Source: a virus. Taken from it: a stretch of DNA of 26,295 nucleotides. A model generated the notes under the pieces. It was not told the origin of the DNA. It did not search any database and saw only the letters and a program-made list of their open reading frames with translations. The stretch spans positions 1 through 26,295 of IMG/VR virus record IMGVR_UViG_3300007514_000563; one strand, 5' to 3'. Positions 5,731-13,920 of this stretch are shown in pieces (the first letter of the stretch is position 1; each line of letters begins with the position of its first letter). The position numbers were made by a program, and so were the translations under genes.

Positions 5731-6183
5731 ATGCCAAGAGAACTTTTAAAGTTTAGAGATGGTGATGTTGGTATGAAAATTCGTAAAGATGGAGCTTTAG
5801 AATTAGCAGGAGTAGGTGGTGATGAAGGAATGATTAGAAAAGATGGGATGGTCAATCCTGCAATGTTGTTTGCTGCTGCTTGGGCAAGGCGAGATCAAAA
5901 AGTTTTTGAATTATTAATTGAAAATTTTAAGTCGGCAATACTAGAAGGATATTTTGGTGAACCAGCAAAAGCTGATTATCAAAAAGCTTTAGAACTTAAA
6001 GAAAAGGCAGATAAAGAATCTCCACAAGATTCAAACACTCCTTTACCAACTTCTATGAAAGAAATTCCCATCCCACCTGAGAAAGAAATTCCTGCCACAA
6101 CTGATACTGCTTCTGGAGCAGTTACTTTTGAACAACCTAAACCATTAACAAGCGAAGAAGCTGTAACAAGGAGAGATTCGTAA
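5731..6183 (+). CDS. Small phage protein of unknown function, similar to the protein at 15182-15826
   Basis: I start this gene at the ATG at 5731 because AAGGAGG at 5716-5722 sits at a suitable distance; a longer reading from 5653 would overlap the previous gene by 76 bases. The 150-residue product has a folded N-terminal half and a disordered, Pro/Thr/Glu-rich C-terminal tail. The N-terminal half has the pattern MKIRKDGALEL, then a helical segment LFAAAWARRD...FELLIENF. The protein at 15182 has the matching pattern LIVRTDGSVEL and VLAFAASLEN...LYANLFQNL, so the two look like distant paralogues. One sits directly before the sliding clamp and the other directly before clamp loader gp62. The stop overlaps the start of gp45 by one base (TAATG). 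Function unknown. Confidence 0.75.
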   Translation: MPRELLKFRDGDVGMKIRKDGALELAGVGGDEGMIRKDGMVNPAMLFAAAWARRDQKVFELLIENFKSAILEGYFGEPAKADYQKALELKEKADKESPQDSNTPLPTSMKEIPIPPEKEIPATTDTASGAVTFEQPKPLTSEEAVTRRDS

Positions 6184-6863
6184 TGAAAATAAGTAACAAG
6201 ACACTTGATGTCTTAAAGAATTTTTCTGAGATTAATCAGTCTATTTTGATTACTCAAGGAAATAAAATTAAAACTGTTTCAGCATTGAAAAATATATTAG
6301 CACATGCTGAAGTAGAGGAAACATTTCCAAAAGACTTTGCTATTTATCAATTAAGTGAGTTTATTGGTGTATTGACTACTATGAACAATCCCGATTTAAC
6401 TTTTAATGATAAGTATGTAAAAATTTCTTCATCCTCGGATAATAATGAATCTTTGAAATATTTTTATGCGGATCCTTCTGTTGTTGTAACTCCTGATAAA
6501 GATATTGAAATGCCTTCCGTGGATATTGATTTTAAATTAGCTAAATCTCAATATGATAAAGTAATGAAGATGGCTAATATTTTACAATTAAATGATGTTA
6601 TGGTTAAAGGCTGTTCTAAATCTAATAAGATGTATTTAACTGTTACAAATAAACAGAATGATACTTCTAATGATTATTCTGTTGAATTGGCTGAAGGTGT
6701 AGGTGAACCATTTAAGATGTATTTTAAATCAGAAAATTTAAAAATTGTTGGTGGAGATTATATAGTATCTATTTCTGAAAAGGGTATTTCACATTTTAAA
6801 AATACTAATAATAGTTTAGAATATTGGATTGCTTTAGAACCTGATTCAACATATGGGTCTTAA
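6183..6863 (+). CDS. 45: DNA polymerase sliding clamp, gp45 family
   Basis: At 226 residues it is almost the length of T4 gp45 (228). The match is visible along the whole chain: the N terminus LDVLKNFSEINQSILI corresponds to the T4 start, AIYQLSEFIGVLTTM to AIYDLNGFLGILSLV, ADPSVVVTPDK to ADPSTVVAPNK, and the end WIALEPDSTYGS to VVALEADSTHDF. gp45 forms a trimeric ring that tethers gp43 to DNA and also activates late transcription with gp33 and gp55. It is translationally coupled to the small gene upstream. In T4 it is followed directly by gene 44; here 1.8 kb of accessory DNA separates them. Confidence 0.95.
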   Translation: MKISNKTLDVLKNFSEINQSILITQGNKIKTVSALKNILAHAEVEETFPKDFAIYQLSEFIGVLTTMNNPDLTFNDKYVKISSSSDNNESLKYFYADPSVVVTPDKDIEMPSVDIDFKLAKSQYDKVMKMANILQLNDVMVKGCSKSNKMYLTVTNKQNDTSNDYSVELAEGVGEPFKMYFKSENLKIVGGDYIVSISEKGISHFKNTNNSLEYWIALEPDSTYGS

Positions 6864-6865
6864 AA

Positions 6866-7657
6866 ATGAATAGTGAGGTAATTTCAAAACCAATTATATC
6901 ATGGTTTCTTTTTTTACACCTTGGAGCTTTATTGGCTTTTATACCAGAGATATTTTGTTGGAGTGCTGTAGCACTAATGATATTTATGTATTGGCTGACT
7001 GCTTCTATTGGTATCTGTTTGGGTTATCATAGATATTTGACTCATAAAAGTTTGATATTACCAAAATGGTTAGATTATTTTGTTGTGTTTTGTGGAACCC
7101 TTGCTTGTCAAAACGGTCCTATCAAATGGGTAGGGTATCATAGACAACATCATAAATTTTCGGATACAGAAAAAGATCCACACAATGCTAATCGTGGATT
7201 TTGGTGGTCTCATATAGGATGGATGTTATATACACAAGATAGTGATAACGATAATATCATAAAACAACATACAAAAGATATTAACAAAGATAAATTTTAT
7301 CAATTCTTAGATAAGTATTACATTCATATTCAAGTAGCTCTTGGTATTTTATTTTATTTACTAGGTGGTATCTCTTGGGTTGTCTGGGGAATCTTTGTAA
7401 GATTAGTTTTTGTGTATCATGTAACATGGTTAGTCAATAGTGCTTGTCATATGTGGGGATATAAAAACTATGATATTAAAAATGATTTATCCACTAATTG
7501 TTGGTGGGCTGCAATATTAAGTTTTGGAGAAGGATGGCATAACAATCATCATAAACATCCGAAGAAATCAAAGCATGGTTTAAAATGGTTTGAATTTGAT
7601 CTAACATGGGTATCTATATGGTTACTTTATAAATTAGGACTAGTAAAGGAGAGATAA
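6866..7657 (+). CDS. Membrane fatty acid desaturase (acyl-CoA delta-9 type)
   Basis: The 263-residue protein has the three histidine boxes of membrane di-iron desaturases: HRYLTH (55-60), HRQHH (92-96) and HNNHH (225-229). The surrounding residues (GYHRYLTHKS, GEGWHNNHHKHP) match the stearoyl-CoA/acyl-lipid delta-9 branch. Hydrophobic segments before box 1, between boxes 1 and 2, and before box 3 fit the four-helix layout. It would introduce a double bond into acyl chains of host lipids and needs an electron donor from the host. It starts two bases after gp45 with only a weak ribosome site, so it may depend on coupling. Desaturase genes are known from marine T4-like phages, where membrane fluidity during infection is the usual explanation. 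Confidence 0.93.
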   Translation: MNSEVISKPIISWFLFLHLGALLAFIPEIFCWSAVALMIFMYWLTASIGICLGYHRYLTHKSLILPKWLDYFVVFCGTLACQNGPIKWVGYHRQHHKFSDTEKDPHNANRGFWWSHIGWMLYTQDSDNDNIIKQHTKDINKDKFYQFLDKYYIHIQVALGILFYLLGGISWVVWGIFVRLVFVYHVTWLVNSACHMWGYKNYDIKNDLSTNCWWAAILSFGEGWHNNHHKHPKKSKHGLKWFEFDLTWVSIWLLYKLGLVKER

Positions 7658-7659
7658 TA

Positions 7660-7752
7660 ATGAGTAAGTGGGTAATTGCTAGAGATGCTTTTATAGGTAT
7701 ATGTTTGAGTATATTATTAATTTCTTTTCTAGGTTGGTTAAGTAGATTATAA
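7660..7752 (+). CDS. 30-residue single-pass membrane mini-protein
   Basis: The ORF starts two bases after the desaturase stop, with a strong ribosome site AAAGGAGAG (7646-7653). It encodes a short polar start (MSKWVIARD) followed by one hydrophobic segment, about residues 10-27 (AFIGICLSILLISFLGWL), and ends SRL. Good ribosome site, operon position and membrane character support it, but there is no homology evidence. It might be a partner or regulator of the desaturase. Confidence 0.5.
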   Translation: MSKWVIARDAFIGICLSILLISFLGWLSRL

Positions 7753-7753
7753 A

Positions 7754-7843
7754 ATGGATAAGAACTATATAATACCAATCTTAATTATAGTGATTGCGTA
7801 TCTGGTTTTATTTCACTATATTATACAGCCCATGTTGGGGTAG
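7754..7843 (+). CDS. 29-residue single-pass membrane mini-protein
   Basis: The ATG follows the previous stop by one base. The product has a short N-terminal MDKN and a hydrophobic segment of about 20 residues (YIIPILIIVIAYLVLFHYII). There is no clear ribosome site of its own, so translation would rely on coupling. Its last codons overlap the first hairpin of the structured RNA (7835-7850), which raises the possibility that translation and folding affect each other. Confidence 0.4.
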   Translation: MDKNYIIPILIIVIAYLVLFHYIIQPMLG

Positions 7844-8036
7844 TTCCCAACTAGTGTGCTACACATGATTGAAATGAGATAACCACTCATAGTAGATGCT
7901 AAGCCGGTGATGAGGCTCGGCACGGCATTGTCGTTAGGTGATTCTGAAAACGGAGGTTAGGAAAGACGTTTTCCCTCTACGGAGCCATGCGTACTTGATA
8001 CGCGTAAATAATACGTTTGCTAAGAATCCCGTTGCC
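7835..8036 (+). ncRNA. Structured, GC-rich leader RNA upstream of talC (candidate riboswitch-like element)
   Basis: This stretch is much richer in G and C than its surroundings and has no convincing ORF beyond its first bases. Several helices can be drawn by hand. A long-range stem pairs 7919-7925 with 8029-8036 (one bulge) and continues as 7940-7944 with 8024-8028, closing a multi-branched domain. Inside it are 7946-7952/7967-7973 (seven perfect pairs) and 7987-7993/7999-8005 (seven pairs with one G-U). Upstream are 7902-7905/7914-7917, 7874-7878/7886-7890, 7854-7857/7861-7864 and 7835-7839/7846-7850. The domain ends 15 bases before the talC ribosome site (TAGGAG, 8051-8056), the position expected of a cis-regulator. 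Known phage leader motifs of this kind include manA and wcaG RNAs; I cannot confirm membership without a covariance search. A free small RNA is the alternative. Confidence 0.65.
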
Positions 8037-8063
8037 ATTTTTAATATACTTAGGAGTAAGAAT

Positions 8064-8708
8064 ATGAAATTTTTTGCTGATACAAGTAATATAGATGAAA
8101 TAAAAAAACTTAAAGACTATGGATTAATACAAGGTGTTACAACAAATCCTACATTAATTGCAATGGAAGAATCTAATATTACTTCCCATTGGCATGATGT
8201 TGTTAAAGAAATTTGTGAGATTGTTGACGGACCTGTTTCTGCAGAAGTTACAAAAGAAAATTATTTTGATATGTTAGGAGAAGCATTAAAGATTAATGAA
8301 ATCCACGAGAATGTTGTAGTAAAACTTCCTTGTACACCTGATGGTATTAGAGTTTGTGAAGCAATTGTTGACAAAGGTGCTGATGTTAATATGACACTTT
8401 GTTTTACAGTAGGTCAAGCTTTGTTAGCTGAAAATGTAGGTGCGCTTTATGTTAGTCCTTTTGTAGGTAGATTAGAAGATCATAAATTAAGATCAGGTAT
8501 TGCTTTAGTTAAAGAAATTAGTGAAGCAACTACTAATGTTAATGTTTTAGCAGCTTCTATAAGAAGTTCAACTCATGTTGATGAGGTAGCACCATACGCA
8601 GATGTTGCAACTTGTCCTCCAAAAGTTATATGGGATATATTCAAACATAAATTGACTGTATCTGGACTTGAACAATTTAATAATGATTGGAAAAAAATGA
8701 ATGAATGA
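8064..8708 (+). CDS. talC: Transaldolase, TalC / fructose-6-phosphate aldolase-like subfamily
   Basis: The start is the ATG at 8064, with TAGGAG at 8051-8056; a longer reading from 7938 would run through the structured RNA and begins with a non-ATG codon. The 214-residue product is the size of the short TalC/FSA subfamily. It begins MKFFADTSNIDEI, has GVTTNPTL at 24-31 and the Schiff-base lysine K87 in VVVKLPCTPDG, and ends with the helix that closes the barrel. Transaldolase moves a dihydroxyacetone unit between sugar phosphates. In cyanophages TalC is a well-known auxiliary metabolic enzyme thought to push carbon through the pentose phosphate pathway toward NADPH and nucleotides. It overlaps gp44 by eight bases, linking a metabolic gene directly to replication expression. 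Confidence 0.95.
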   Translation: MKFFADTSNIDEIKKLKDYGLIQGVTTNPTLIAMEESNITSHWHDVVKEICEIVDGPVSAEVTKENYFDMLGEALKINEIHENVVVKLPCTPDGIRVCEAIVDKGADVNMTLCFTVGQALLAENVGALYVSPFVGRLEDHKLRSGIALVKEISEATTNVNVLAASIRSSTHVDEVAPYADVATCPPKVIWDIFKHKLTVSGLEQFNNDWKKMNE

Positions 8709-9696: not shown

Positions 9697-10338
9697 ATGA
9701 CTAAATTGACTAAATGTAAATGTGGGCGAGAAAGAGATGCTACAAAAAGAGTTAAATGTTGTGAACCGGGTTGTAATAATCTTGTACAAAATGTACACGG
9801 ACCTGAAGATCCATATTATAGACCTCATCCAAATTTATCATTTCATACGGATGAAAGTTGTTGTGTCTGCACTAAACATCATCAAAAAATGAATGATTTC
9901 TTTGGTGAGTATAGATTCTATCGCCTTCCTGAATGTGCTAATGTAGATGGAAGGTTAGGATTTAAATGTAAAGGTGTTCAACATATACCTGAAAGATTAA
10001 GAGCGGGTATTTTAGAAGTAGATCATAAAGATGAGTTCCATGACAATGATCCTAAGAAGAAGGGTAATAAACATATATGGTCGAAAAATTTACAAACTCT
10101 TTGTGCTGTTTGTCATAAAATAAAAACACTTATGGTTGTGCATTTAGATCAACATGAACCTGAAATTAGATACATGCTTTCATTTGAAGAACATGCGTAT
10201 GATACTGATGATGAATGTATTGACGCTATATGGGCAAGCAAAAAGCAGCATGGTAAAGGTGTACCGAAGGAAACAGAAGATAACTCAGTAGTTAATCTAG
10301 TTGAACAATTTGGACTAACGAAAGTAGATACATTATGA
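9697..10338 (+). CDS. HNH endonuclease with Cys-rich zinc-binding N terminus
   Basis: The 213-residue protein has a Cys-rich N-terminal part (CKCG, CCEPGC, CCVCTKHH) likely to bind one or two zinc ions, and a central HNH motif: D109-H110, N131 in KNLQTLC, then C136, C139 and H140 in LCAVCHKIKT. This is the D-H...N...CxxCHxxKT form of HNH nucleases. It is first in the modification operon, driven by the promoter at 9649, and overlaps queE by four bases (ATGA). That coupling argues against a recently inserted homing gene. It could cut unmodified host or competitor DNA or act in recombination; a homing nuclease remains possible. No Shine-Dalgarno sequence is visible before the ATG. Confidence 0.8.
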   Translation: MTKLTKCKCGRERDATKRVKCCEPGCNNLVQNVHGPEDPYYRPHPNLSFHTDESCCVCTKHHQKMNDFFGEYRFYRLPECANVDGRLGFKCKGVQHIPERLRAGILEVDHKDEFHDNDPKKKGNKHIWSKNLQTLCAVCHKIKTLMVVHLDQHEPEIRYMLSFEEHAYDTDDECIDAIWASKKQHGKGVPKETEDNSVVNLVEQFGLTKVDTL

Positions 10339-11240
10339 GTAAATTAAGATATAGTGAGATGTTTTATTCTGTACAGGGAGAAGGAAGGTTTGTGGGGGTA
10401 CCTTCTATCTTCCTTCGTTTGTTTGGTTGTAACTTTGAGTGTAGAGGTTTTGGTCAAACTAGTCGAGATCAATCTAAATGGTTACCTGAGGATAAGATGC
10501 CTCACAATCAAGATTATCCTGATATAAAACATTTAGTTGATTTACCAGTTCCCGAAATAGGATGTGATAGTTCTTTTAGTTGGGGTAAGAAATGGGGACA
10601 CCTTGCACACTATGAAGATATAGATACTATTGTTAAATCGTTTAATGAATATCAACCTGAAGTATCAACTGATAGTCCTCATTTAGTTATTACAGGCGGT
10701 GAACCTCTTTTAAAGGGATTCCAAAAACCATTAATGGATCTTATTTTTCATCCGAAATTTCCTACACAGTTTATAACATTTGAAACTAATGGTACTCAAG
10801 AATGTTCTTTTAATGAACATATTTCAGAAAGTACACATGATCGTTATATAGATTTTTATAGAAGATATGGTGATAGAGGTTTTGCGAGATGGGGTGGAAT
10901 TACATGGTCTGTATCTCCTAAACTTTCATTGAGTGGAGAAAAAAAAGAAGAAGCATTAAGACCAGAAGCTTTGTTGTCTTATAATAGATGGCCTCATTCA
11001 TATTTGTATTTAAAATTTGTTGTTAGAGATGAAGAAGATTTTAAAGAAGCAGAAGAATTTATTAATGAGTATGAAGAAGCGGGTGTAATTATTGATAATG
11101 TTTATATGATGCCCGAAGGTGCTACAAGTGATGGTCAATCTTATACAGAAGGCACAGTTGCTCAGTTGTGTTTAAAATACGGATATTCTTTTAGTCCTCG
11201 GTTACATATTAATTTGTTTGGTAATAAATGGGGGACCTAA
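10335..11240 (+). CDS. queE: QueE-like 7-carboxy-7-deazaguanine synthase (radical SAM)
   Basis: QueE converts 6-carboxytetrahydropterin to 7-carboxy-7-deazaguanine, the ring contraction of the preQ0 pathway. The 301-residue protein opens with YSVQGEGRFVGVPSIFLRLF, the standard QueE start. It also has the GGEPLL motif (residues about 117-122) for SAM binding. The cluster motif is unusual. C32 and C36 are in place (GCNFEC), but the third cysteine of the usual CxxxCxxC is absent there. C77 in GCDSSFSW, which lines up with the CDTKHTW of ordinary QueE, supplies it after a 40-residue insertion (CX3CX40C). This also explains why it is longer than E. coli QueE (223). A second insertion lies near 170-195. 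Function is likely but depends on C77 being the ligand. Confidence 0.88.
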   Translation: MSKLRYSEMFYSVQGEGRFVGVPSIFLRLFGCNFECRGFGQTSRDQSKWLPEDKMPHNQDYPDIKHLVDLPVPEIGCDSSFSWGKKWGHLAHYEDIDTIVKSFNEYQPEVSTDSPHLVITGGEPLLKGFQKPLMDLIFHPKFPTQFITFETNGTQECSFNEHISESTHDRYIDFYRRYGDRGFARWGGITWSVSPKLSLSGEKKEEALRPEALLSYNRWPHSYLYLKFVVRDEEDFKEAEEFINEYEEAGVIIDNVYMMPEGATSDGQSYTEGTVAQLCLKYGYSFSPRLHINLFGNKWGT

Positions 11241-11635
11241 TGACTAAACAAATCAAAGATTCATATATGTATATAGATGAAGAAGCAAGAGCGGGTAAAA
11301 CAAGAATGCCTATTGAACTTGTAAAAGATTTTACAGAATTAGCTAAAAAAATGGGAGTTTATCGAAGTGCATTATTAAGAAGGGTTCTTGAAAGTTTTGT
11401 TCTTTATATGAATGATGCTCGTGCATTTGGGAAGTTGCCTACGTTTTCGGCTCCTCTTGGTGTTGAAACATGGATGCATGAGAGAGAACAAATTTATTCT
11501 TATACAAAAGATATTAATAAAATGAGAATAGCTATTCAAAATGAAAAGGATGTTAATAAAAAAATAGATTTACTTGCTGAACAGAATGAATTGTTATCTA
11601 ATATGACTAATCTTTTAAATAAACAGGTGGTGTAA
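11240..11635 (+). CDS. Ribbon-helix-helix protein with C-terminal coiled coil
   Basis: I prefer the ATG at 11240, overlapping the queE stop (TAATG), with GGGGGA at 11229-11234 as ribosome site; an ATG at 11228 in the same frame is the alternative. The 131-residue product has a ribbon-helix-helix pattern: strand KTRMPIEL, helix VKDFTELAKKMG, then VYRSALLRRVLESFVLYM. The C-terminal third (KDINKMRIAIQNEKDVNKK onward) is probably a coiled coil for oligomerisation. RHH proteins bind DNA through the paired strands and often repress their own operon, so it may regulate the modification genes. It could instead guide a DNA-acting enzyme such as the DpdA-like protein. The family is inferred from the pattern only. 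Confidence 0.65.
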   Translation: MTKQIKDSYMYIDEEARAGKTRMPIELVKDFTELAKKMGVYRSALLRRVLESFVLYMNDARAFGKLPTFSAPLGVETWMHEREQIYSYTKDINKMRIAIQNEKDVNKKIDLLAEQNELLSNMTNLLNKQVV

Positions 11636-12076
11636 ATGGCTGATAAATTTTATTATAACTATGCTCATTATATGAAAGATATGAAACATTTGGTGGATAG
11701 ATTTACAAGAGTATCAAATCCTCATATAGTAGGTGTGTATAGAGGATCACTTCCTATCGCAACTCATTTAAGTAATTCGTTGGATTGTCCAATGAGTATT
11801 ATTCGTTTTCAATCAAGAGATGGTAAAGATACTGAACCAGAATGGATCCTTCATCCTGCTGATACCGAATCATTTGATTCGGATTCAACTCTAATTGTTG
11901 CTGAGGACATATATGATACAGGACATACATTTAGAAAAATTAAAAACATGCCGGATTTAAAAGAGAATCCGTATGTGATATATACTGCTTTGTTTGGATC
12001 TAAAAATCAAGATGGTGTAGATTATTTAAATGAAAGAAATGGACAATGGATTGTCTTTCCGTGGGAGTATGTTTAA
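11636..12076 (+). CDS. Purine-type phosphoribosyltransferase
   Basis: The 146-residue protein has the PRPP-binding loop of type I phosphoribosyltransferases: LIVAEDIYDTGHTF with E90, D91, D94, T95 and G96. It also has the upstream strand and P-loop-like turn VGVYRGSLPIATHLS. Length and layout resemble xanthine/guanine/hypoxanthine phosphoribosyltransferases. It starts immediately after the previous stop and overlaps queD by one base, so it belongs to the modification operon. It may salvage the guanine released when DpdA exchanges bases, or act on a 7-deazapurine base. The substrate cannot be read from sequence. Confidence 0.8.
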   Translation: MADKFYYNYAHYMKDMKHLVDRFTRVSNPHIVGVYRGSLPIATHLSNSLDCPMSIIRFQSRDGKDTEPEWILHPADTESFDSDSTLIVAEDIYDTGHTFRKIKNMPDLKENPYVIYTALFGSKNQDGVDYLNERNGQWIVFPWEYV

Positions 12077-12531
12077 TGTATAGAAGTACTAAAACATTCG
12101 GTAATGATGTAGGATTGAGTTGCTCTTTTAGACAATGGAGAGCTGATAGTCATTGTCATTTTATTCATGGTTATAGTTTAGGATTTCGTTTTGTATTTGA
12201 AGCAGAAGAATTAGATAAGAGAAATTGGGTTTATGATTTCGGAGGATGTAAGTGGATTAAGAAGTATCTTGAAGATAATTTTGACCATAAGTTAGCAATA
12301 GCAGAAGATGATCCAGAATTATCAAATATTTTAAAATTATCTAAAGATGTAGCATGTATAAATGTTGTAAAAGGTGTAGGATGTGAAATGTTTGCTAAAC
12401 AGGTTTTTGACTTTGTTGCTCCAGAAGTTAGAAAAGAAACTCATGGACGCGTGAGTTTATATAGTGTGGAGTGTTTTGAACATGGTGCTAATAGTGCAAT
12501 AGCACATAACCCGTACGGTAGTATAATATGA
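12076..12531 (+). CDS. queD: QueD-like 6-carboxytetrahydropterin synthase
   Basis: The start at 12076 overlaps the previous stop; the longer frame from 12046 has no support. The 151-residue product is of the 6-pyruvoyl-tetrahydropterin synthase/QueD fold and would convert dihydroneopterin triphosphate to 6-carboxytetrahydropterin. It keeps C27 and H31 of the C-x3-H-G motif (CHFIHGY) and the catalytic D70-H71 pair (FDHKL), with E near the end in VECFEHG. Two zinc-ligand positions differ from E. coli QueD as I recall it: position 33 is Tyr instead of His (HGY, not HGH) and position 16 is Cys. H26 and H28 could compensate. The operon context makes QueD the best reading. Confidence 0.85.
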   Translation: MYRSTKTFGNDVGLSCSFRQWRADSHCHFIHGYSLGFRFVFEAEELDKRNWVYDFGGCKWIKKYLEDNFDHKLAIAEDDPELSNILKLSKDVACINVVKGVGCEMFAKQVFDFVAPEVRKETHGRVSLYSVECFEHGANSAIAHNPYGSII

Positions 12532-12544
12532 AAAGGAGAATTTT

Positions 12545-13225
12545 ATGAAAGCTTTAACAGTTTTATCAGGTGGTCAAGATAGTACAACTTGTTTGTATTG
12601 GGCGTTAGCAAATTTTGATGAGCATGTTGCTATTACTTTTGATTATGGTCAAAAGCATAGACGAGAAATTGCATGTGCTAAAAAGATTGCTCAGATGGCA
12701 GGTGTAGAACATGAGGTTATTGAAGTAGGTAATATTCTGAAAGGTACTAGTCCTCTTGTAAATTCTGATTATGATGTTGAACAATATAAAGACGCGGCAT
12801 CATTACCCGGTGGTTTGGAAAAAACATTTGTTCCTTCAAGAAATATGTTGTTCTTGACAATTGCATCTAATCGTGCTTATGTGCATGGTTGTGATGTTGT
12901 TATTACTGGTGTGTCCGAAGAAGATTATGGTGGATACCCTGATTGTCGAGAAGGTTTTATTCGTGGTATGGAAAATGTTTATAATGAGGGATTGGAGAAA
13001 GATATTAAAATTGTTACTCCTCTAATTCAATTAGATAAAAAACAAACTGTTGAAATGGCTGTTGATCTTCCAGGTTGTATGGAAGCTTTAAAGTATAGTC
13101 ATACTTGTTATAATGGAGAATTTCCTCCTTGTGGAAAATGTCATGCATGTCTTTTGAGAGAGAAAGGATTTGAGTTGGCTGGTGTTCCTGATCCTATACA
13201 TGATTCAGAAGGTGTTAGTGTATGA
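12545..13225 (+). CDS. queC: QueC, 7-cyano-7-deazaguanine (preQ0) synthase
   Basis: QueC converts 7-carboxy-7-deazaguanine to preQ0 with ATP and ammonia. The 226-residue protein is the normal length. The N-terminal PP-loop is SGGQDST (8-14). The C-terminal zinc site is C188, C196, C199 and C202 (CYNGEFPPCGKCHAC). There is no fused amidotransferase domain, so the product should stop at preQ0 and not be carried on to archaeosine-type bases by this protein. It has a strong own ribosome site (AAGGAG at 12533-12538) and overlaps the next gene by four bases (ATGA). Confidence 0.95.
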   Translation: MKALTVLSGGQDSTTCLYWALANFDEHVAITFDYGQKHRREIACAKKIAQMAGVEHEVIEVGNILKGTSPLVNSDYDVEQYKDAASLPGGLEKTFVPSRNMLFLTIASNRAYVHGCDVVITGVSEEDYGGYPDCREGFIRGMENVYNEGLEKDIKIVTPLIQLDKKQTVEMAVDLPGCMEALKYSHTCYNGEFPPCGKCHACLLREKGFELAGVPDPIHDSEGVSV

Positions 13226-13920
13226 AGATTTCTAAAAAGATTAAAGAAAGATTAGATTATAGTTTTGAAAGTGTTGATTCATCAAAATCTTATCTGGCTA
13301 ATGATTCGATTTATGCTTTTTTAGAGGATGGAGATATAGACGGACTCATAGAAGAAGTTGCTGAGTCTTTTCAAGGTGTATTAGATTCTTTAGTTATAGA
13401 TTCACAGAAAGATCATAATACAAAAGACACAGCAAAAAGAGTTGCTAAGATGTTTATTAATGAAACTTTTCGTGGTAGATATTATCCTCCACCTGTAGTA
13501 ACAGCGTTTCCTAATGCTAAGATGTATGACCAATTATATATGACGGGTCCTATTAGTATTGATTCAACTTGCGCTCATCATTTTCAACCCATATCAGGTA
13601 AATGTTATATTGGGATTTTCCCGGGAAAAAAAGTTATAGGTCTTTCTAAGTTTAATCGAATGGTTGATTGGATTGCTTCAAGACCTCAAATACAAGAGGA
13701 AATGACAGAACAAATAGCTGATATGGTTGAAAAAGAAACTGAAGCTAAAGGAGTAGCTGTTGTTGTTAAGGCAGAACATTTTTGTATGACCGCTCGTGGT
13801 GTTAAAGAACATGAAAGTGATATGTTGACATCTGTAATACGTGGTGATTTTTTAAAAATAGATCATTTGAAAGCAGAGTTCTTTTCTCTGTTAAATAATA
13901 TGAAAGGAATAAATGAATAA
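13222..13920 (+). CDS. folE: GTP cyclohydrolase I
   Basis: This enzyme opens the pathway by converting GTP to dihydroneopterin triphosphate. The 232-residue protein has the zinc ligands C117 and H120 (CAHHFQP) and C188 (EHFCMTARGV), and the conserved TAKRVAKMF helix and GLSKFNRMVDWIASRPQIQEE segment of FolE. It overlaps queC at its start and the DpdA-like gene at its end, so the pathway genes are translated as one block. With QueD, QueE and QueC it completes a GTP-to-preQ0 route independent of host enzymes. QueF was considered but lacks support, since the CAHH zinc motif is that of FolE. Confidence 0.95.
   Translation: MKISKKIKERLDYSFESVDSSKSYLANDSIYAFLEDGDIDGLIEEVAESFQGVLDSLVIDSQKDHNTKDTAKRVAKMFINETFRGRYYPPPVVTAFPNAKMYDQLYMTGPISIDSTCAHHFQPISGKCYIGIFPGKKVIGLSKFNRMVDWIASRPQIQEEMTEQIADMVEKETEAKGVAVVVKAEHFCMTARGVKEHESDMLTSVIRGDFLKIDHLKAEFFSLLNNMKGINE

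Follow-up and report, generated by a model that had tools for sequence, protein, structure and literature searches.

Genes and leader of the talC locus

The window analyzed here, the whole stretch of 26,295 nucleotides that forms positions 1 to 26,295 of IMG/VR record IMGVR_UViG_3300007514_000563, is part of the genome of a T4-like marine phage. The sliding clamp gene gp45 (6183-6863) is followed by a fatty-acid desaturase gene (6866-7657; Pfam FA_desaturase, E 6.1e-21), two tiny ORFs of about 30 codons each that were read from the sequence as probable membrane proteins (7660-7842), the RNA element studied here, the transaldolase-like gene talC and the clamp loader gene gp44. In the nearest relatives (86% DNA identity in gp44) the slot holds neither desaturase, RNA nor talC; instead a 2OG-Fe(II) oxygenase-like gene, named from sequence resemblance, was found there. 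The desaturase-RNA-talC stretch is thus a variable cassette. A run of 7-deazaguanine (preQ0) genes lies at 10335-13920 and encodes a QueE-like radical SAM protein, a phosphoribosyltransferase-domain protein, a PTPS/QueD-like protein, QueC and GTP cyclohydrolase I, which suggests that phage DNA or RNA is modified.

An initial annotation placed a structured, GC-rich leader without an ORF at 7835-8036 and proposed that it senses a metabolite on behalf of talC. The composition matches the described island: GC content was 0.45-0.51 at 7850-7999 and about 0.25-0.35 in the flanks, and the only gene-sized ORF detected was talC itself, extended 5' in frame to a GTG at 7938. A structured RNA does lie there, with its start at about 7831, four bases earlier than annotated; the whole element spans 7831-8040 on the + strand, as given by the match to covariance model R1 (see below). 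Its first hairpin, P1, overlaps the second of the two tiny ORFs, whose stop codon lies inside P1; in one of the relatives (L270) the upstream ORF likewise has its stop within P1. The folding energy of the single sequence was ordinary (z -0.72; 47 of 200 shuffles were equally good), and relatives were therefore needed to test the structure.

Relatives, covariation and fold

Pattern scans of IMG/VR recovered four further copies, with three distinct sequences among them, on contigs of other marine T4-like phages: L182 (on G070), L270 (on G087), and L238 and L239 (on G071 and G072). L238 and L239 represent one RNA, so the comparative set, including the source element, comprises four distinct sequences, of which three come from one phage group. 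L182 was found with a 16-base pattern taken from the centre of the element, L238 and L239 with a second pattern leaving the P9 stem free, and L270 with a third, placed in a near-invariant block; the remaining matches of these three patterns were dismissed as chance. A 3'-end pattern and one mid-element pattern gave, besides L182, only chance matches. The contigs of the relatives are T4-like by their baseplate genes; gp44 is not included on them. A short leader-like motif around TAAACAAAGGAGTTA is common to the source phage (963-997) and two RNA-bearing contigs (L235, 5195-5230 and 5451-5482; L270, 4183-4215), in one instance as the ribosome-site region of a gene. This shared motif hints that the source phage and the RNA-bearing phages may be related.

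Other searches yielded no further copies. R1, run over the full length of 100 other marine phage records, found none apart from two weak matches that were rejected: one in Synechococcus phage DSL-LC03, which was antisense, scored 14.7 bits and lacked the conserved blocks, and a still weaker one in P-TIM68. BLAST of the source element and its relatives against 50,697 phage records returned nothing over the RNA. No copy was found with 18- and 29-base patterns in 84,980 bacterial and archaeal genomes (GTDB), where five matches of the 18-mer lay in unrelated contexts and were attributed to chance. TalC as bait in IMG/VR retrieved no close relative; 80 distant loci were obtained, and those of their talC leaders that were inspected had other sequence or manA.

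The 5' half of L182 is identical to the source element over about 105 nt, and its 3' half has 54.5% identity, with differences at almost half of the positions and the changes paired. Since the 5' halves are identical while the 3' halves have diverged, phages may recently have exchanged this sequence by recombination. Four stems (P5, P6, P7, and P9) had already been read from these two sequences, and L239 and L270, found later, both kept them.

R1, a covariance model derived from L182, L270, and L239 only, matched the source element, which was left out of it, with 152.7 bits (E 1.6e-51 over 552 kb); part of this score comes from the 5' half common with L182, and R1 E-values are rough. In the R1-model alignment of the four distinct sequences 93% of cells were paired, and 24 of 55 base pairs had changed on both sides while remaining paired, compared with 10.7 (sd 2.2) expected from shuffles and 2-6 when the partners were slid. 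This alignment is fitted to a structure drawn from the same sequences. A stem-by-stem hand alignment gave 29 compensatory pairs, and RNAalifold on a plain MAFFT alignment, unfitted to any structure, gave 21 two-sided pairs and regained nearly the same fold (all helices except P8, some in part only). Homologues thus carry the compensatory changes whose absence would have spoken against the annotated stems.

The element could still be taken for coding sequence, or for a GC-rich stretch that arose by chance and does nothing as RNA, given the ordinary energy of the lone sequence and a frame that stays open from 7938 into talC. Stops occur in every frame of all members, however, P8 tolerates an insertion of more than 100 nt, and the strong two-sided covariation already refutes such an origin, provided that the alignment is right; we regard it as scarcely conceivable. 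The stretch 7831-8040 is a conserved structured RNA rather than a chance fold.

The RNA begins with small hairpins in a row, P1-P4, followed by a closed second domain in which P10, P5, and P6 enclose P7, P8, and P9 (Table 1). Ten helices are kept in the four distinct sequences, in agreement with the closed multi-branch RNA ending just before the talC ribosome site that the initial annotation described. Support for P2, P8, and P10, in which there is hardly any variation, comes from conservation alone. The P2 loop (7859-7861) can pair with 7893-7895 (CUA/UAG; UCG/CGA in L270 and L239). A three-pair pseudoknot, both sides of which change in step in the two forms seen, is therefore possible from the sequences and may tie the P1-P4 row together. 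The near-invariant block contains the 5' strand of P10 (7919-7922) and a small hairpin, CGGC-AUU-GUCG (7923-7933). In L238 and L239 (the RNA spans 1966-2294 of L239, minus strand), P8 has grown into an arm of more than 100 nt, the insertion at its tip being itself probably folded.

Table 1. Features of the talC leader RNA and its downstream gene (window coordinates)
Feature	Position	Strand	Evidence or variation
P1 hairpin, GUUGGG/CCCAAC, UAGU in loop	7834-7851	+	GGCGUU/AGCGCC in L239; two-sided change at 4 of 6 pairs (hand alignment)
P2 hairpin, GUGUG-CUA-CACAU	7854-7866	+	Stem invariant
P3 hairpin, AUGAG/CUCAU	7874-7890	+	GUGCU/CGCAC in L270; GUUAU/AUAAC in L239
P4 hairpin, AGCC-GGUGAUGA-GGCU	7902-7917	+	UAUC/GAUA inside CUUAUC-GGG-GAUAAG in L270 and L239
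Near-invariant block CGGCACGGCAUUGUCGUUAG	7918-7937	+	Four sequences identical but for last base (G; A in L270)
P5 5' strand, partner 8024-8030	7938-7944	+	CAGUAU/AUACUG in L182; GGAAUAU/GUAUUCC in L270; AGGAUGU/ACAUUCU in L239
P6 5' strand AAACG, partner 8014-8018	7948-7952	+	GCAGG/CCUGC in L182 and L270; GCAGC/GCUGU in L239
P7 hairpin, GGAAA-GACGU-UUUCC	7960-7974	+	GGGAA/UUCCC and GUGGA/UCCGC in relatives
P8 stem CUC/GAG, UACG loop	7975-7984	+	Stem invariant in four sequences; insertion at tip only
P9 hairpin, AUGCGUA-CUUGA-UACGCGU	7987-8005	+	Two-sided change at 5 of 7 pairs; loop CUUGA or CAUGA
P6 3' strand CGUUU, partner 7948-7952	8014-8018	+	Same pair changes as P6 5' strand
P5 3' strand, partner 7938-7944	8024-8030	+	Same pair changes as P5 5' strand
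P10 3' strand UGCC, closes second half with 7919-7922	8033-8036	+	UGCC in three sequences; UGUC in L270
AGGAG ribosome-binding site of talC, outside RNA element	8052-8056	+	Sequence
talC, transaldolase-like, downstream of RNA	8064-8708	+	Pfam TAL_FSA, E 3.7e-47; PHROG 440

The stems drawn by hand in the initial annotation were largely recovered. The stem 7940-7944/8024-8028 (GAUUC/GAAUC) is part of P5 and covaries fully, and the seven-pair hairpin 7987-7993/7999-8005 is P9, with five covarying pairs. The second seven-pair internal hairpin probably corresponds to the P7 region, which has five pairs, three of them covarying. From the outer seven-pair stem 7919-7925/8029-8036 only GGCA/UGCC (7919-7922/8033-8036) was kept, supported by near invariance plus one change from G-C to G-U; the rest is not conserved. 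Positions 7923-7926 more likely pair locally with 7930-7933 in the modelled fold, and 8029-8030 were assigned to P5. P6, which the initial annotation did not list, also covaries.

Comparison with known RNA families

The same annotation left open whether the leader was manA, wcaG or something new. Rfam 15 returned nothing at gathering thresholds for the element or its relatives, and only unrelated chance matches up to E 10, so the RNA is new. No Rfam family model for a group I or other intron, tRNA or tmRNA matched the element; ARAGORN found no tRNA or tmRNA gene. A literature search for the 15-mer core of the element found no mention.

The manA RNA (RF01745) is an orphan cis-regulatory RNA of cyanophages and marine metagenomes that precedes diverse genes; the gene classes listed in the main text of its description do not mention transaldolase (PMC2864571). 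In cyanophage P-TIM40 we found that the RNA upstream of talC is manA (141.7 bits). In this phage and several marine phage contigs (together loci L086, L101, L106, L112, L148, L158) manA lies 28-41 nt upstream of talC, and it is directly upstream in P-TIM40 plus at least four other distinct marine phage sequences. The talC leader is therefore a known place for structured RNA. Like manA, the element is a structured RNA of about 190-200 nt that occurs in leaders of various phage genes and directly upstream of talC; the trait of leading a metabolic gene applies to the source talC copy only, and the likeness is one of place, not membership. The two differ in that neither model matches the other's RNA, helix order and closing helix differ, and no conserved block is common.

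The element could nonetheless be a divergent manA, to which its length of about 200 nt, its site upstream of talC and a 5' hairpin in both RNAs would correspond. It did not reach the manA gathering cut-off (55.2 bits). With permissive filters the manA model gave no match at E up to 5-10, with none in the source record up to E 10 or in any relative, and R1 had no match in manA-bearing loci at E up to 1. By-eye comparison with the manA alignment showed that the closing pseudoknot GGGaG...CuCCC and the conserved GUGACUGAAUAA and UAAGGUGAUGAG are absent from the members, and the closing helix begins elsewhere. A manA-like GGUGAUGAG in the source element was dropped as evidence because it is not kept in L270 and L239. 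We consider membership in the manA family very improbable. Since other marine phages have manA at this site upstream of talC, the element looks like an unrelated RNA filling the same role.

The wcaG RNA (RF01761) is likewise an orphan cis-regulatory candidate of marine phages found upstream of metabolic genes (PMC2864571); its model did not match the element or its relatives at any threshold used. The glutamine riboswitch (RF01739) of cyanobacteria and cyanophages is also a leader element in T4-like marine phages; it differs in being about 50 nt long with one small fold, and it had no match in the element or relatives. Weak RF01739 matches were observed near talC in P-TIM40 and others.

Placement and possible role

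In every copy the RNA is on the strand of the downstream gene, starts in the sequence where the upstream ORF ends or no more than about 45 nt away, and leaves 20-32 nt between its own end and the ATG (27 nt from the end of P10 to the talC ATG). The fold is conserved and its place just before the ribosome site is constant. No terminator was found after the element, no pattern of ribosome-site pairing or sequestration was common to the members, and promoter-like sites were not more frequent than in shuffles.

The downstream genes differ. talC occurs once, in the source phage; a 130-aa protein family follows in L182 and L270 (48% identity), and in L239 a tiny membrane ORF and then a 163-aa ORF. 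The 130-aa family, characterized by GWxLEPTY and GTADMLNKV, lies directly behind the RNA (L182, 2180-2572, minus strand; L270, 7330-7743) and had no Pfam or PHROG match. No recognized metabolic function was found in the downstream genes of the non-talC copies.

Different gene neighborhoods might be expected of a phage small RNA that acts in trans and only happens to lie between genes, and the better conservation of the 5' half than of the 3' half in two close pairs would suit such an RNA. The constant strand and distance to the start codon, the missing terminator and the ordinary frequency of promoter-like sites argue against it, and we consider this role rather improbable.

The initial proposal, a riboswitch for a sugar phosphate or nucleotide controlling talC, draws on the complex conserved fold with its near-invariant 20-nt block and on manA, an orphan riboswitch candidate, at the same site before talC. 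Conserved structure with covariation, as expected of a riboswitch, is present. The copies do not lead genes tied to one ligand or pathway, which is weak evidence with only four distinct copies; those other than the source precede genes of no recognized metabolic role, which speaks against a talC- or sugar-specific sensor, and a search for an expression platform shared by the copies found none. A riboswitch of this kind is unlikely.

Alternatively, instead of sensing a metabolite, the RNA may be bound by a protein of the phage or its host, as a translational operator, or may stabilize the mRNA 5' end. Translational repression by proteins such as RegA is established for T4-like phages, and RegA-type genes lie near gp44 in relatives. 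Because the downstream genes are unrelated, a general signal is suggested; operators, however, are usually smaller. We hold this as a possible, still doubtful, explanation.

The element is the first found of a small, previously undescribed RNA family of marine T4-like phages that occurs before different genes. Based on its placement, it probably resides in the mRNA leader or intergenic region and would act in cis on the gene 20-32 nt further on. As no terminator follows and the element ends just upstream of the ribosome site, it may control translation start or stability of the downstream mRNA. As the downstream genes differ between copies, the signal it answers is unlikely to be private to talC and would be a general metabolite, a protein of the phage or its host, or the state of infection. 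More tentatively, the family could be a riboswitch-scale class that reads an intracellular infection signal, such as a common metabolite or nucleotide, and gates talC together with other phage genes, the talC-leader slot being interchangeable with manA.

R1 provides a covariance model for a family of phage RNAs that is missing from Rfam 15. The timing and dosing of stolen metabolic genes by phages is a largely open question. A well-supported, unlisted RNA precedes talC where other phages carry manA, and the question becomes testable because one reporter could serve to compare the two unrelated RNAs in front of the same gene.
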